20,434 nt of DNA, taken from positions 1-20,434 of IMG/VR virus record IMGVR_UViG_3300045539_000179; one strand, 5' to 3'. Shown here one piece after another: positions 4,729-10,964 of this stretch. A program made the translations under genes and the position numbers. The notes under the pieces are model-generated. The model was not told the origin of the DNA and did not search any database. It worked only from the letters and a program-made list of their open reading frames with translations. This DNA comes from a virus. Positions within the stretch are counted from its first letter, which is position 1; every line of letters begins with the position of its first letter.

Positions 4729-4922
4729 GATTTATAATTTTTATTAAAATATTTATTGTAAATAACTACACCTAATATAAGTGTTATTATTAACCCCACT
4801 AACAAATATAATGGTAAAAATACATAAAACCAAGAAAAATATGTGTTTATTATAAGTTTATAGTAAATTAATATTAGTGTTAGTTGACCAAAGAAGAACG
4901 GAATATAGAATTGTAATTTCAT
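4725..4922 (-). CDS. Small two-segment membrane protein (65 aa)
   Basis: A 65-residue, very hydrophobic protein with two likely transmembrane helices (about residues 5-27 and 32-55) and a short basic tail (YNKYFNKNYKS). It overlaps the homing-type nuclease gene upstream and the zinc-ribbon gene downstream by four bases each, both ATGA arrangements. Function is unknown; size and topology alone do not separate a holin-like protein from an inner-membrane accessory factor. Confidence 0.65.
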   Translation of the reverse strand: MKLQFYIPFFFGQLTLILIYYKLIINTYFSWFYVFLPLYLLVGLIITLILGVVIYNKYFNKNYKS

Positions 4923-5971
4923 GAGGGTATGTATTTAGATTTAAACTTAGTTTCATATCTTTCAGTAAATTTTATATCACCAGAATTATATAATGATAAT
5001 ATTTCTTCGCTACTTAATTTTTCAGGTGTTATAATTTCAAATGTATAATTATTTTCTTTACAATATTTTTTTACACCTTCTATCTTATTTAATACTTTTG
5101 GGGAGTTAATTAAAGTTGAAGGTTTTATTTCAATAATTTTATTACCATTAATAACAAAATCAGGAAAATAATTTCTTTTTATACCTTCATAATCTACATA
5201 AGGTATTTTATATTTTTTTAATTCACCATTTTCCCATGAAAGATTTTCTTTTACGATAACATTAACCATGTAAGATAATTCAAATAAACTTCTAAAAAAC
5301 CAACCATTTGGAATATAGTGACCACTCCAACCGTTTCCTGAACCTTGTGGTGATGGTTTTCCAAACATTGGATTATTTTCGCCAGATGAATTATTTTTTT
5401 GAGTATTAATCCATTCTTCGTATTTAGTTGTACCAGACTCTACTCCGAATTTTTCAATCCATGTTTCTTTAAAACCACCAGTTCTACCGTAATTAGGGTT
5501 ATTTTCACCAGAAAATAGTGAACTTAATCTTTCTTTATTCTCATTTGATTTTAAATAATCAATATATTTTTGTTTCTTTTCACTAGGATTAGACCAGCTT
5601 TCTTTCATTTGTTTTTTTATCTCATCAGTATGTGTTTTACCAAAAAATGGATTATTTTCACCTTTAAATTTATTGCTATTATATAATTTTTTACATTCAA
5701 TACATGGAAAATTTTTACAATTATTAATACAAATTACACCTGCTTTTTCATATTTTTTTATTTCAAATTCTTTAATATAATTTTTTAAAGTAGTGTAGTT
5801 TCTAAGATTTTTAATTATTATATCAATTTCTTCATCATTATATCTTTTATTTTTATATCTTTTTGTTTTTAAAATTGTAATTATATTTTTTTCTTCTCTA
5901 ATACAATTGATACAAATATCTTTGGATTTATTTGAAATTATTATTTCATTACATTTTGTGCAGTTTTTCAT
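4919..5971 (-). CDS. Homing-type endonuclease: zinc ribbon, NUMOD3 repeats and PD-(D/E)XK nuclease domain
   Basis: A 350-residue modular protein. The N-terminus has a Cys4 knuckle (CTKC, CINC, residues 4-23), and a second Cys cluster lies at 81-93. Three NUMOD3-like DNA-binding repeats follow: GENNPFFGKTHT (about 104-115), GENNPNYGRTG (155-165) and GENNPMFGKPSPQGSG (197-212). The C-terminal part has FRSLFELSYM with Glu231, then YFPDFV with Asp271 and EIKPS with Glu281 and Lys283, the layout of a PD-(D/E)XK nuclease. NUMOD3 repeats are typical of phage homing endonucleases. The gene starts directly after the uvsX terminator and is coupled by a four-base overlap to the small genes behind it, which is unusual for a freestanding homing gene. 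Its exact target is unknown. Confidence 0.8.
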   Translation of the reverse strand: MKNCTKCNEIIISNKSKDICINCIREEKNIITILKTKRYKNKRYNDEEIDIIIKNLRNYTTLKNYIKEFEIKKYEKAGVICINNCKNFPCIECKKLYNSNKFKGENNPFFGKTHTDEIKKQMKESWSNPSEKKQKYIDYLKSNENKERLSSLFSGENNPNYGRTGGFKETWIEKFGVESGTTKYEEWINTQKNNSSGENNPMFGKPSPQGSGNGWSGHYIPNGWFFRSLFELSYMVNVIVKENLSWENGELKKYKIPYVDYEGIKRNYFPDFVINGNKIIEIKPSTLINSPKVLNKIEGVKKYCKENNYTFEIITPEKLSSEEILSLYNSGDIKFTERYETKFKSKYIPS

Positions 5972-7296: not shown

Positions 7297-8202
7297 TTAG
7301 AATGGCATATCATCATCATCACCAATACTTGCAATTTTCTCTGCATTTGTTTTTGGTTTTGATGTTTTAGGCTCTTCTTTTGGAACGCCTACTTTTTTTG
7401 ACCATTCATCGTCACTTAAAATTTCTGGTTCAGAACCTTCTTCTTCATATACTACATTACTAGGTGTTGTTGTTGTTTGTTCAGATTGTGTTGGTAATTT
7501 GTAATTGATATTACCTAGATTTGGTAGAATATCTTTTTCAATTACATCTAAATAAAACTGTTGATGTTTTTTGTGGTTTTTAATTTCAACTTCTTCACCA
7601 TCAACAGTTTTCTTAATCATTGTTGGTGGAACATCAGTTTTGAAATCATATTTCCAAGATGCTTTTGTTTTATCTTCACCACCATCTTTTGGTGCTGCAA
7701 ATCTAAAAAAGTCTTTTGAACCACTAACCCAGTCTTTATCATGTCTTAATGTAAGATTGAAGTTAATTTCTGTTTTACCGTTTTTTTGTGATTCATTTTT
7801 AATAATAGATAGTTTAATTAAACCATATGTTTTAATATTAGCTAAACTATTTAACATTGTACTTACCATACTGTTTACTCTACCTTCATTGTTTGTAAAT
7901 GGTAATTGTAGTATATAATTTTCATTATCATCATCTGTAAATGAAAATTTAACATTTGGTGCTGGAATAATCTTTCCTGTTGAATCTTTGTAAGTTGCTT
8001 CCGTATCAACTTTAATATCAAGTAGATAACCATGAAATGGTAGTGGATAGTTAGTAGCATTTTTCATTAAGATAGGTACATATTTACCATCTATTTTTTC
8101 TGACAATTGGAAGAATTTTCCAAGGATAGTATCTCCTTGTTTTTCGGAGATAACTTTTAACCATTTTACTGGTTTTGCGGTGTTTTGTGTTTCAAATCCC
8201 AT
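7297..8202 (-). CDS. Single-stranded DNA-binding protein, gp32-like role
   Basis: A 301-residue protein with a beta-rich, OB-fold-like body (about residues 10-180), an aromatic and basic surface segment (TLRHDKDWVSGSKDFFRFAAP) and a disordered, acidic, Thr/Pro/Lys-rich C-terminus ending GDDDDMPF. The tail resembles the acidic hydrophobic tip of bacterial SSB proteins (DDDIPF), which recruits partner proteins. T4 gp32 has the same length and the same genomic company (uvsX, helicase), but the zinc-binding motif of T4 gp32 is not seen. It should coat single-stranded DNA at the fork and in recombination. A good Bacteroidetes-type promoter lies about 50 bases upstream (8253-8283). Start at 8202 is preceded by an A/T-rich leader without a Shine-Dalgarno sequence. 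Confidence 0.78.
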   Translation of the reverse strand: MGFETQNTAKPVKWLKVISEKQGDTILGKFFQLSEKIDGKYVPILMKNATNYPLPFHGYLLDIKVDTEATYKDSTGKIIPAPNVKFSFTDDDNENYILQLPFTNNEGRVNSMVSTMLNSLANIKTYGLIKLSIIKNESQKNGKTEINFNLTLRHDKDWVSGSKDFFRFAAPKDGGEDKTKASWKYDFKTDVPPTMIKKTVDGEEVEIKNHKKHQQFYLDVIEKDILPNLGNINYKLPTQSEQTTTTPSNVVYEEEGSEPEILSDDEWSKKVGVPKEEPKTSKPKTNAEKIASIGDDDDMPF

Positions 8203-8522
8203 AATTTTAATTTAATTTTGATTTATTTTTATTCACTATTAGTTTACTATAACAAAGGTAACGTTAAAATTAATATAAACAAATATTTTGTTTACTTATT
8301 TATTATAAATAGTCAAAAAATATTATTTAACTACATTCAATAATGAAAATTATACAAATGTAATAATAGCACTTAATAAAATAGAACATTTAAAAACAAT
8401 GAAAATTATTAATGATTTAGAAGAAATTATATTAAATGTAAGTAGTTATAAATTTATTTCAGATACAGAAATGAAAATTGAACTTTTATATGCAACTGTT
8501 GTTCCTAAATTTTTCATATTAT
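8203..8522. other. Intergenic region between DUF2828 and SSB genes
   Basis: These 320 bases hold the SSB promoter at the left side. On the + strand a frame without an ATG until 8399 is open from about 8308 to 8596 (LTTFNNENYTNVIIALNKIEHLKTMKIINDLEEIILN...). It looks partly coding, but it runs antisense into the DUF2828 gene and has no clear start or natural end, so it may be a gene remnant. I see no clear terminator for DUF2828 here. Confidence 0.3.
8253..8283 (-). promoter_or_regulatory. Bacteroidetes-type promoter for the SSB gene
   Basis: On the minus strand, TTTG (8283-8280) is followed after 19 bases by TACCTTTG (8260-8253), an exact match to the TTTG-N-TANNTTTG pattern used by the primary sigma factor of Bacteroidetes. 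The transcript would start near 8247, giving a leader of about 45 bases before the SSB start codon. Confidence 0.7.
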
Positions 8523-9914
8523 TTATTTTAAAATTTCACTTATTAAATTATATCTTTCATTATTTAATGTTGTTAACATTATTCCTTGTGGAGTGAAATC
8601 ACCACCAGATAACAAACTTTGTATTATTGAAGGTGATGCACCGCTAACCAATGCTACATCTTTTGATTTTGTTGTAGTTGGTATATTTCCTACTCTACCA
8701 TTAACATTCCAGAAACATAATTTAGGTGCAATATAACCTTTTTCATTAAACTTTATATTTATATCATCATAAATGAAATTATTTCTAGTACATTCATTAA
8801 ATTCCATATCTGAAATAATTAATAATGTTGTAGGTAAATCTTCTTGTTTTACATTTTGTGCGATAGCATAATCTAATATTAAATTATAAGTTTTTTCAAT
8901 ATCAGTTGAACCTCCCCAGTGTGCATTAATTAATGAATTAAATTTTTCTATAATATCACCTTTTAGATGTTCAATAGTTGGTGTTGTACTGAATGTTAAT
9001 ACAGTATCTTTAAAAGCACTATTATTACGTTCAGAAAGATATACTCCTAATGATATTGATATATCCATAGGTAAGCCGTTCATTGAACCAGATACATCAC
9101 ATACAGGTAGAAATGATTCTTTACTATCTTTAATGTAATTAGGTAAATTTTCCCATTGTACTTTAATGGCATCTAATTCATTAGTGTTATAATTACTTTC
9201 TTTATATTTTTGATATAATTGATATGGGAATATTGCTGATGCATTAACCTTTACTTCACCATTTTTAGCTGCTTCAATAAAAGCACTAAATCTTGTTTCA
9301 TCAAATTTATAGAATACTTTTGAGTTTCTTTTAAAAGAAAGTGATGGAACTTGTGAATAATTTATTGAATCAAAGTTTTTTGAACATATTTTTTGTTCAA
9401 TACCATTTTTTGATAATTCAACTAATATTTTTCTTAATTCCTTTGGGGTTGTAGATAATTCTTTAAATAAGTTATTAAATACAGGTCCTTTTCTTGGTAA
9501 CCATTTTGCTAATAATATATTTTTTTCGTCTATTAATTGTTTACGAATATATTTAAAATCAATATTTTTTAAATTTTCATCTTTAATATAATCTTTCCAA
9601 TAACCATATTCTGGTATTAGAACACTTATTTTTTTATATAAATCATTATTAATGATTGAAATGTGATTTAATATGATATTAAAAAATCTTCTTTCACCAA
9701 TACCACCTCTAATATCTCTTGACCAGAATAATAATTTCATCGCTAAAATATTATCAGATGCATAAGCTTCATCAAATAAATTTGTTATATCTCTTTCTGA
9801 GATGTTTCTAGATGCTCCTGCGATAAAAAATAAATCAACTAATTTATCAGTTGAAGATTTTAATGTTAAAGCACCGTTATTAGTTGTTGTAACGTTTGTA
9901 AGAAAATTTTTCAT
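8523..9914 (-). CDS. DUF2828 protein: helical repeat region plus von Willebrand A domain (TROVE/Ro60-like architecture)
   Basis: A 463-residue protein. The N-terminal region carries DUF2828 hallmarks: TTNNGALTLKSSTDKLVDLFF (about 10-30), the motif RDIRGGIGERRFF (66-78) and PEYGYWKDY (101-109). The C-terminal half is a von Willebrand A domain with a complete metal-ion site: DVSGS (273-277), Thr337 in HWGGSTD and Asp369 in IISDMEF. FWNVNGR and VALVSGASPSIIQSLLSGG follow near the end. Ro60/TROVE RNA-binding proteins share this layout of helical repeats followed by a vWA domain; a direct RNA-binding role here is inferred. The gene lies between the sigma factor and SSB genes and has a leader of more than 200 bases containing its own promoter and a structured RNA (9945-10118). 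The protein seems complete. Confidence 0.82.
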   Translation of the reverse strand: MKNFLTNVTTTNNGALTLKSSTDKLVDLFFIAGASRNISERDITNLFDEAYASDNILAMKLLFWSRDIRGGIGERRFFNIILNHISIINNDLYKKISVLIPEYGYWKDYIKDENLKNIDFKYIRKQLIDEKNILLAKWLPRKGPVFNNLFKELSTTPKELRKILVELSKNGIEQKICSKNFDSINYSQVPSLSFKRNSKVFYKFDETRFSAFIEAAKNGEVKVNASAIFPYQLYQKYKESNYNTNELDAIKVQWENLPNYIKDSKESFLPVCDVSGSMNGLPMDISISLGVYLSERNNSAFKDTVLTFSTTPTIEHLKGDIIEKFNSLINAHWGGSTDIEKTYNLILDYAIAQNVKQEDLPTTLLIISDMEFNECTRNNFIYDDINIKFNEKGYIAPKLCFWNVNGRVGNIPTTTKSKDVALVSGASPSIIQSLLSGGDFTPQGIMLTTLNNERYNLISEILK

Positions 9915-9944
9915 AATATATTTTTTTTTATAATTTTTTGTTAA

Positions 9945-10118
9945 ATAAAAAAATAAACTAACAACCAGGTTTCATTTTTTTTCTTAGCATAGAGAGTTTG
10001 ATTGCTGAAAAAACCTTTTGTTATTAGTTTATTTTACTTTTATATTAATTAACAGATTGTGGTTTATATATCCATTTATATGTTTGAGTTGCAGAATACA
10101 ACCTTTAATAATTAATAT
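9945..10118 (-). ncRNA. Two-module structured RNA upstream of the DUF2828 gene
   Basis: Module 1 is closed by a perfect 14-bp inverted repeat, 10109-10122 with 10038-10051. About four of these pairs lie upstream of the predicted RNA start. Its interior holds small stems such as GTTG/CAAC and ATATA/TATAT. Module 2 is closed by 14 bp (9952-9965 with 10020-10033, one G-U pair) stacked on 6 bp AGGTTT/AAACCT (9967-9972 with 10011-10016), with a short AGCA/TGCT stem inside. On the minus strand module 2 runs into a T-rich tract (9951-9943), so it can act as a terminator. A promoter at 10123-10154 would start the RNA inside the first stem. It may be a separate small RNA of about 175 bases or an attenuating leader of the DUF2828 mRNA. 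Confidence 0.55.
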
Positions 10119-10122
10119 AAAA

Positions 10123-10154
10123 CAAATGTAAATAATAAAATTAATAAATCCAAA
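10123..10154 (-). promoter_or_regulatory. Bacteroidetes-type promoter for the structured RNA / DUF2828 gene
   Basis: On the minus strand, TTTG (10154-10151) is followed after 20 bases by TACATTTG (10130-10123), matching the TTTG-N-TANNTTTG pattern. It starts about 20 bases after the sigma factor stop codon, and the predicted start (about 10118-10116) falls at the 5' arm of the first long stem. Confidence 0.62.
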
Positions 10155-10172
10155 TATATTTCATTATTTATT

Positions 10173-10964
10173 TTAACCTATAATATCTTTTTTAACCATA
10201 AAGTAAAGACTTTTAAATTTCATAATTGATTTTCTAATATCTTTTGTATCAAGTCTTGTTTGTTCTTTAAGAATATAGAATATTTTATTTTTGGTGTAAA
10301 TGTTTGATGTTTTTTGTTTTTTAAGTTTACCTCTTTTGGTGTACTCTAATTTTTCATCATTTTCTTCATAGAAGAAGTATTCATAATTCATTAAAATAAG
10401 TATTATTGATTCTGCTACTTTAACATCATCATCTCTTAATGATTTATTAGTTTTAATTTCCTTTTTAAGAGCCTCTACGGTGTTATTAACAATTTTATCT
10501 AGTACATCAGCTTCACTAAACATATTGTCGTCTATATACGCTTTATCTTTGATTTGTTGTTCAATATAATCTAAGTTATATTGTCCGATATCATCATTAA
10601 TAGATTCTTTTTTATTTGCTTGTAATGAATGTGTTTTGTAATAATTATTACAAATAGTACCTAGATATGAGAATGCTTTAACATTTTTACCATCCTTTCC
10701 TATTTTTGTATAGTCAAATCCTTGAATTGCATTATATACTTGTATGTATGCTCTTGCTTCTAATTCATCTATACCACAGCTACCTACGTATCTAGGATAT
10801 TTTTGAAGTAAACCTTTTACTAATTTTTCAATAGGTTCGTGAAGGTATTTTGTATATATGTAATTTTTTTCATCAGTATTTGTTGATGATAAATATTCGA
10901 TAACAGCTTTTTCTTCTTTTTCTCCGAAGTAATTTTCTTTATCAGGTTTTTTTGTTTTGGACAT
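10173..10964 (-). CDS. Late transcription sigma factor, T4 gp55-like
   Basis: A 263-residue basic protein. The segment GIDELEARAYIQVYNAIQGFDYTKIGKDGKNVKAFSYLGTICNNYYKTHSLQANKKE (in outline, residues 64-120) matches sigma region 2: a core-binding helix followed by the aromatic, basic stretch that melts the -10 region. The C-terminal half is helical and Lys-rich. No complete region 4 is evident, as in gp55, which relies on a sliding clamp and co-activator. It would direct host RNA polymerase to phage late promoters. The gene stands alone between long AT-rich intergenic regions. A divergent host-like group of sigma factors is the alternative, but phage context favours a late factor. Confidence 0.75.
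   Translation of the reverse strand: MSKTKKPDKENYFGEKEEKAVIEYLSSTNTDEKNYIYTKYLHEPIEKLVKGLLQKYPRYVGSCGIDELEARAYIQVYNAIQGFDYTKIGKDGKNVKAFSYLGTICNNYYKTHSLQANKKESINDDIGQYNLDYIEQQIKDKAYIDDNMFSEADVLDKIVNNTVEALKKEIKTNKSLRDDDVKVAESIILILMNYEYFFYEENDEKLEYTKRGKLKKQKTSNIYTKNKIFYILKEQTRLDTKDIRKSIMKFKSLYFMVKKDIIG

Follow-up and report, generated by a model that had tools for sequence, protein, structure and literature searches.

Ro60 is a ring protein that handles damaged RNA and binds its partner, the Y RNA, on the outside of the ring, and in the Deinococcus Rsr-PNPase particle the Y RNA tethers an exonuclease. Bacterial Y RNAs, such as YrlA, are small structured RNAs whose genes lie next to that of a Ro-like protein, and Y RNAs have reportedly been described in phages already, by Chen et al. 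in 2014. For the Rsr-like protein of Listeria phage CKA15, Y RNAs were proposed by the authors in 2025 (PMC12282133). This protein belongs to the same family as the one studied here, and in the literature that we searched we found no tested RNA partner for DUF2828 proteins. Here, we analyze a 20.4-kb IMG/VR phage fragment (IMGVR_UViG_3300045539_000179; the whole stretch is called the window), in which a minus-strand gene (8523–9914) encodes a 463-residue Ro-like protein with DUF2828 and a DUF7788 vWA domain. We consider it likely that the region upstream of this gene (9945–10154, minus strand) encodes a transcript with two tandem RNA copies that are dedicated to the downstream DUF2828 protein as its Y-RNA-like partners.

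Results

The DUF2828 gene is preceded by a 258-base gap (9915–10172; 17% G+C) that holds a promoter-like site and two RNA modules, an arrangement that a first-pass annotation of the sequence had already described and that our analysis reproduced. The promoter-like site is an exact match to the Bacteroidota-type pattern TTTG-N20-TACATTTG (10123–10154, minus strand) and ends just before module 1 (10038–10122, minus strand; fold z-score −2.8), in which a perfect outer stem of 14 base pairs (bp; 10122–10109 with 10051–10038) surrounds one core. Module 2 (9950–10035, minus strand; z-score −4.9) has an outer stem of 16 bp as measured, with one G-U pair (10035–10020 with 9965–9950), around a second core; it is followed by a T-rich tract and ends about 36 nucleotides (nt) short of the DUF2828 start codon. 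For the pair of modules, the fold z-score is −3.8 relative to shuffled sequence. Core 1 (10051–10107, minus strand) reads GGUUGU-AUU-CUGCAA...ACAAUC-UG, with the two stem strands at 10103–10098 and 10060–10055, the motif AUUCUGCAA reaching 10089 and the UG at 10054–10053. In core 2 (9964–10019, minus strand), the stem GGUUUU (10015–10010) / GAAACC (9973–9968, one G-U pair) is accompanied by UU, then CAGCAA (10007–10002), and by a UG at 9967–9966.

Hairpins in a gap this rich in A+T could be incidental, that is, terminator-like structures or promoter palindromes. Besides the base composition, two results from the window itself speak for this explanation: inverted repeats of at least 14 bp arose in 2 of 300 shuffles of the gap, so that the repeats alone are only moderately unusual, and the promoter pattern occurs in the window at chance frequency (3 seen versus 2.5 expected). 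The position of the site at 10123–10154, unlike the frequency of the pattern, is suggestive of a promoter, and both minus-strand matches of the pattern fall in gaps upstream of genes. As the repeats are only moderately unusual and the promoter pattern is no more frequent than expected by chance, it is the comparison with other phages that decides. This comparison contradicts the incidental explanation: both modules match an independent covariance model (E ~1e-5), nothing else in the window does, and the RNA family that the model represents covaries strongly. We therefore rejected incidental structure, whose probability we regard as close to nil.

For this comparison, relatives of the DUF2828 protein were collected from phage records (681 of 50,697 had one), from viral contigs (more than 500 stretches) and from genome contigs of bacteria or archaea (likewise more than 500 stretches); a single-sequence protein search of the viral contigs proved too strict. 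Reading the gaps around these relatives, we spotted a recurring element composed of AAAG, a 6-bp stem with an invariant 5' G, UUCAGCAA, a variable loop, the other stem strand and UG. Two or three bases separate the 5' stem strand from C(A/U)GCAA, and mycobacteriophage copies end in AG where others have UG. Strict copies of the element numbered 101 on the gene strand and 1 on the opposite strand, as compared with 0.85 in shuffles. As these copies had been selected for pairing, pairing was retested without selection: an exact 6-base stem partner was present at 106 of 353 gene-strand CAGCAA sites versus 4.6 on average (maximum 9) when the stems were swapped between loci, and on the opposite strand 2 sites were partnered versus 1.7 with swapped stems. 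The covariance check that the first-pass annotation had proposed was likewise positive, with compensatory stem changes across related phages. In an alignment of 34 sequences, five of the six stem pairs change on both sides with 100% of the cells paired, and the covariation score is 0.95 versus 0.23 for shuffled data.

A covariance model, R1, was built from 34 copies of other phages, with the window left out. Under full scoring of the window, the two modules ranked first and second (core 2, 32.2 bits, E 6e-6; core 1, 31.0 bits, E 1.2e-5), and the next match reached 14.4 bits. The default filters of the search miss both modules, since the speed filters drop such A+T-rich copies. Both window modules belong to this DUF2828-associated CAGCAA-stem RNA family, which has no entry in Rfam 15. 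The long outer stems, which had been taken as the sign of a Y RNA, did not hold up as a conserved Y-like feature and were rejected as such: helices of at least 14 bp occur only in the two window modules among 102 copies, the general excess is weak, and the stems are nearly private to the window phage. The conserved and informative part is the short inner core, and the earlier description of the structure, correct in its outer stems, had overlooked precisely this 6-bp stem with its CAGCAA/UG core. In the last copy before the DUF2828 gene at several loci (L013, L015, L016, L018 and L020), part of the loop is, by eye, complementary to downstream sequence (for example GGGAAGGT with ACCTTCCC), possibly as a conserved pseudoknot that joins the RNA and the gene start.

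The RNA is linked to the protein first by co-occurrence with its gene. Copies are present in 15 of 16 named phages with a DUF2828 gene, or in 16 of 17 when counting KVP40, originally chosen as a control but then found to encode a DUF2828 protein. Six phages that lack the gene served as controls (T4, phiKZ, SPO1, K, rV5 and S-PM2), and none of them had a copy. Among the DUF2828-positive phages that contributed nothing to R1, 12 of 13 carry copies, Lak-A2 being the exception. Most or all copies lie about 6–50 kb from the gene in vB_SmaS-DLP_6, Ci1, vB_OspM_OC, EniLVp02, F86, Aeh1 and KVP40, and linkage alone therefore does not explain the association. For a test in the reverse direction, viral contigs of at least 20 kb were retrieved by DNA pattern alone. 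DUF2828 was encoded in 12 of the 14 contigs with the paired motif (several of these 12 had previously been encountered via the protein) versus 5 of the 28 with an unpaired motif.

RNAs and gene are also absent together. Three near relatives of the window (contigs L307–L309), whose neighbor gene is 95–96% identical to that of the window, align to it on either side of a unit that comprises both RNA modules and the DUF2828 gene (8323–10166, minus strand). The alignments break at 10167 and at 8318–8322, and 32–38 nt replace positions 8323–10166; neither the RNA nor the DUF2828 gene occurs elsewhere in these three fragments. This is a natural deletion of a single unit of about 1.84 kb.

The family is not confined to phage records, as it occurs upstream of DUF2828 on Ruminococcus flavefaciens and Butyrivibrio contigs. 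A search of bacterial contigs with R1 gave 41 matches in the vicinity of DUF2828 genes, every one on the same strand as the gene (for instance L271 3615–3674, L283 3542–3599, L286 3859–3918 and L273 3886–3957). In viral loci, copies precede the gene in 58 cases and follow it in 26; of those that precede it, 43 are no more than 400 nt away from the start of the protein match. Clusters of tRNA genes often neighbor the loci (L006, L007, L089, L092, L093 and L096).

These positions bear on another explanation, in which the DUF2828 mRNA carries the modules as a cis-acting 5' leader, through which the protein would repress translation or the last hairpin would attenuate transcription. The predominance of upstream copies fits such a leader, as does the window, where the T-rich tract comes after module 2 and the module ends so close to the start codon; a leader role would moreover be compatible with partner RNAs, which can autoregulate too. 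As a general account, however, the attenuating leader put forward in the first-pass annotation is weak, given the downstream copies, some of them between tRNA genes (L093), the seven phages with copies far from the gene and the tRNA mimics contained in some copies (see below). In addition, a simple scan of the window found no intrinsic terminator, despite the 16-bp stem and the T-rich tract. We therefore regard a leader as an unlikely explanation of the modules, while autoregulation through the cores ~36 nt before the start codon is possible in the window phage.

The window protein matches the Pfam families PF11443 (DUF2828; E 9e-27) and PF25043 (DUF7788; E 3e-41), with a weak vWA match, and PHROG 850, an 'RNA-binding protein' group, at 3e-122. 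As a sequence-profile search of the PDB reached TROVE proteins at E 0.9 only, we ran a fold search with an AlphaFold2 (AF2) model of the protein (predicted local distance difference test, pLDDT, 90). The top three PDB matches were all Ro60 proteins, namely the Ro autoantigen (1yvr), the Ro60 of Thermus phage phiLo (9l5y) and Deinococcus Rsr (2nvo), with E values from 7e-7 to 4e-5. The residues of the metal ion-dependent adhesion site (MIDAS; D273, S275, S277, T337 and D369, in the order DxSxS, T, D) are invariant in 43 proteins. According to the model, the window protein has a Ro60-like fold, a helical ring plus vWA, which agrees with the layout that had been suggested from the sequence. This layout is common to Ro60, Rsr and TROVE proteins, including phiLo Ro60, whereas by sequence the window protein is classed as DUF2828/DUF7788 and shares about 10–16% identity with them.

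Several copies in other phages resemble Y RNAs more directly. In L089, mycobacteriophage Lumos, contig G028 (two copies), G007 (one copy) and KVP40 (one copy), the CAGCAA-framed loop encloses a T-arm and/or a D-arm in the order of YrlA, and the four best YrlA (RF02553) matches among the DUF2828-positive phages searched all lie inside the CAGCAA frame. All these matches are below threshold (best phage match 49.9 versus a cut-off of 69), and scores below ~30 bits occur in DUF2828-less phages and control genomes too, so weak YrlA matches mean little. The window itself gave no match to RF02553.

Phage CKA15 offers a second view of the system. It carries three family copies ~70–340 nt upstream of its DUF2828 gene, and in P100plus, a close relative, a strong sigma-A-type promoter lies ahead of the copies. 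The most transcribed region of CKA15 (26,236–26,727), which its authors left unexplained (PMC12282133), has the position of a ROOL RNA, not that of the family copies, which makes the CKA15 RNA sequencing data unusable as proof of expression. The ROOL match concerned is that of L092 2435–2986 (Rfam, 86 bits, E 8e-16, just below the cut-off). Purified virions contained the DUF2828 protein CKA15_055, with 20 peptides and 57% coverage (PMC12282133). This presence in particles would suit RNAs that act as decoys or guides apart from Ro-type RNA handling, for example when packaged alongside the DUF2828 protein into the virion. The YrlA-type tRNA mimics within the same frame and the Ro60-like fold indicate Ro/Y-type handling instead, and we think that decoys or packaged guides are quite improbable.

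A comparison with Rfam pointed to one further class. RF01414 (Dicty_Class_I_RNA) is the sole Rfam family that aligns with the short copies over their full length, always below threshold: core 2 scored 26.7 bits and core 1 19.3 bits, and the best score in phages was 37.1, against a gathering cut-off of 41.5. Most of the 31 RF01414 matches coincide with R1 places in DUF2828-positive phages. Four unrelated control genomes also give matches, as does phage T4 (NC_000866, 132052–132103, minus strand; 24 bits), and single weak matches therefore carry little weight. T4 is without DUF2828 and R1 does not find that place; the match is probably a chance one.

Almost every large gene of the window has the minus-strand orientation; among their products are a DnaB-like helicase, a UvsX-like recombinase and PhoH. 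On the other side of the gap, the gene at 10173–10964 is weakly sigma-like (TIGR02939, E 0.001 only). Searching a defense-system library gave no match, and a similarity search of the gap DNA against phages gave chance matches only. A second promoter-like site, TTTG-N19-TACCTTTG (8253–8283, minus strand), precedes the gene at 7297–8202, and its TACCTTTGTTATAGT part is retained in the three relatives without the RNA-DUF2828 unit. The minus-strand gene at 4919–5971 encodes a protein with repeated GENNPxFGK/GRT motifs that resemble homing endonuclease repeats; it matched no NCBIfam family (Pfam was not run on this protein). Two other structured RNAs scored above their cut-offs near DUF2828 loci, a pistol ribozyme (L018 2443–2508, 51 bits) ~130 nt upstream of tandem copies and a freshwater-1 RNA (L011 1883–1944, 74 bits) in a cluster of tRNA genes that precedes DUF2828.

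Discussion

Several observations weigh against the two modules being Y-RNA-like partners of the DUF2828 protein. The support is computational and consists of the RNA structure and its covariation, membership in the family, the co-occurrence with the gene and the absence together with it, and the Ro60-like fold of the protein, while RNA binding and expression in the window phage are predicted. By sequence, the window protein has no match to the Pfam TROVE family, and its global template modeling (TM) scores against Ro60 are moderate (0.37–0.49). No copy was detected in Prevotella phage Lak-A2, which has the most divergent DUF2828 match, or in 8 of 33 viral contigs, some of which are fragments. 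Module 1 has CUGCAA in place of CAGCAA, and the 20-kb window contains no tRNA-like domain, a feature that several related phages have in the same frame; as the window is itself a fragment, additional copies could be located beyond its ends, perhaps including one that holds a tRNA mimic. Finally, the window gap lacks GNCGAAN0-1G, the classical Ro-binding element, which occurs near 3 of 101 copies. The first-pass proposal, in which a Ro-like protein of the phage is paired with an RNA that resembles Y RNAs, thus finds support in covariation, co-occurrence, loss as a unit, fold and YrlA mimics, but not in the classical Y-RNA element, which we rejected as the protein-side module.

With the modules read as partner RNAs, we infer that they are transcribed as a discrete RNA, are bound by the DUF2828 protein and serve to gate or tether, in other words that the phage RNAs work like Y RNAs. 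Each copy would present one protein-recognition core (G-initial 6-bp stem, N2-3, C(A/U)GCAA, loop, stem strand and UG), and by analogy with Ro60 and Y RNA the protein would bind this core outside its ring. The resulting ribonucleoprotein would be produced during infection, and the variable loop may set the task of the particle, which could be to gate the ring cavity, to mimic tRNA, or to tether an exoribonuclease or damaged tRNA. A loop that tethers an exonuclease would parallel the Deinococcus Rsr-PNPase particle. The tRNA clusters around the loci would fit a particle that helps to maintain tRNA or RNA in the infected cell. The recurring core provides a defined candidate ligand for every DUF2828 protein, which is testable by mutating six bases.

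Compared with bacterial Y RNAs and YrlA, the phage family has the same T-arm/D-arm module in one copy of several DUF2828 phages, and differs in its protein-side module, which combines the 6-bp stem, C(A/U)GCAA and UG and is not the GNCGAAN0-1G helix. Judging from these sequence patterns, some members share the tRNA mimic of Y RNAs while the protein-side module is a different one. This would distinguish the module by which phage Y-like RNAs bind protein from its counterpart in classical Y RNAs, with the same tRNA mimic kept.

The second comparison concerns the Class I RNAs of dictyostelids, which are unexplained RNAs linked to multicellular development and for which we know of no Ro-like partner in dictyostelids. 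They are 42–65 nt long and have an AAG start, a 6-bp stem, an invariant 5' G, CCUUACAGCAA, a variable loop and a CUGU end (PMC7919456), features that we also compared with the Rfam RF01414 consensus. Common to Class I RNAs and the phage family are the length, the end stem with its 5' G, the variable loop, the UUACAGCAA beside the 5' strand, the AAG start and the CUG(U) end. Module 2 shows the Class I features in full, and module 1 shows them with the CUGCAA variant. The amoebal genes have a Dictyostelium upstream sequence element (DUSE) promoter ~60 nt upstream, and the one proven binder is Rnp1A, a protein with an RNA recognition motif (PMC7919456), whereas the window is phage DNA with a bacterial-type promoter-like site (no DUSE scan was made). 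Class I RNAs were reported to be unique to dictyostelids, after a search of organisms that included one bacterium and, by description, no phages (PMC7919456), and in the literature that we searched no paper links Dictyostelium, Class I RNA and Y RNA. Based on the shared AAAG, 6-bp stem, UUACAGCAA and CUG core, we tentatively raise the possibility, to which we give somewhat less than an even chance, that the phage DUF2828-associated RNAs and the Class I RNAs form one recognition family, both bound by DUF2828-type proteins. If this is true, Class I RNAs would be Y-RNA-like RNAs whose proper partner was overlooked, and an orphan amoebal RNA class would be tied to a protein family of known fold, which would make Class I function directly testable.
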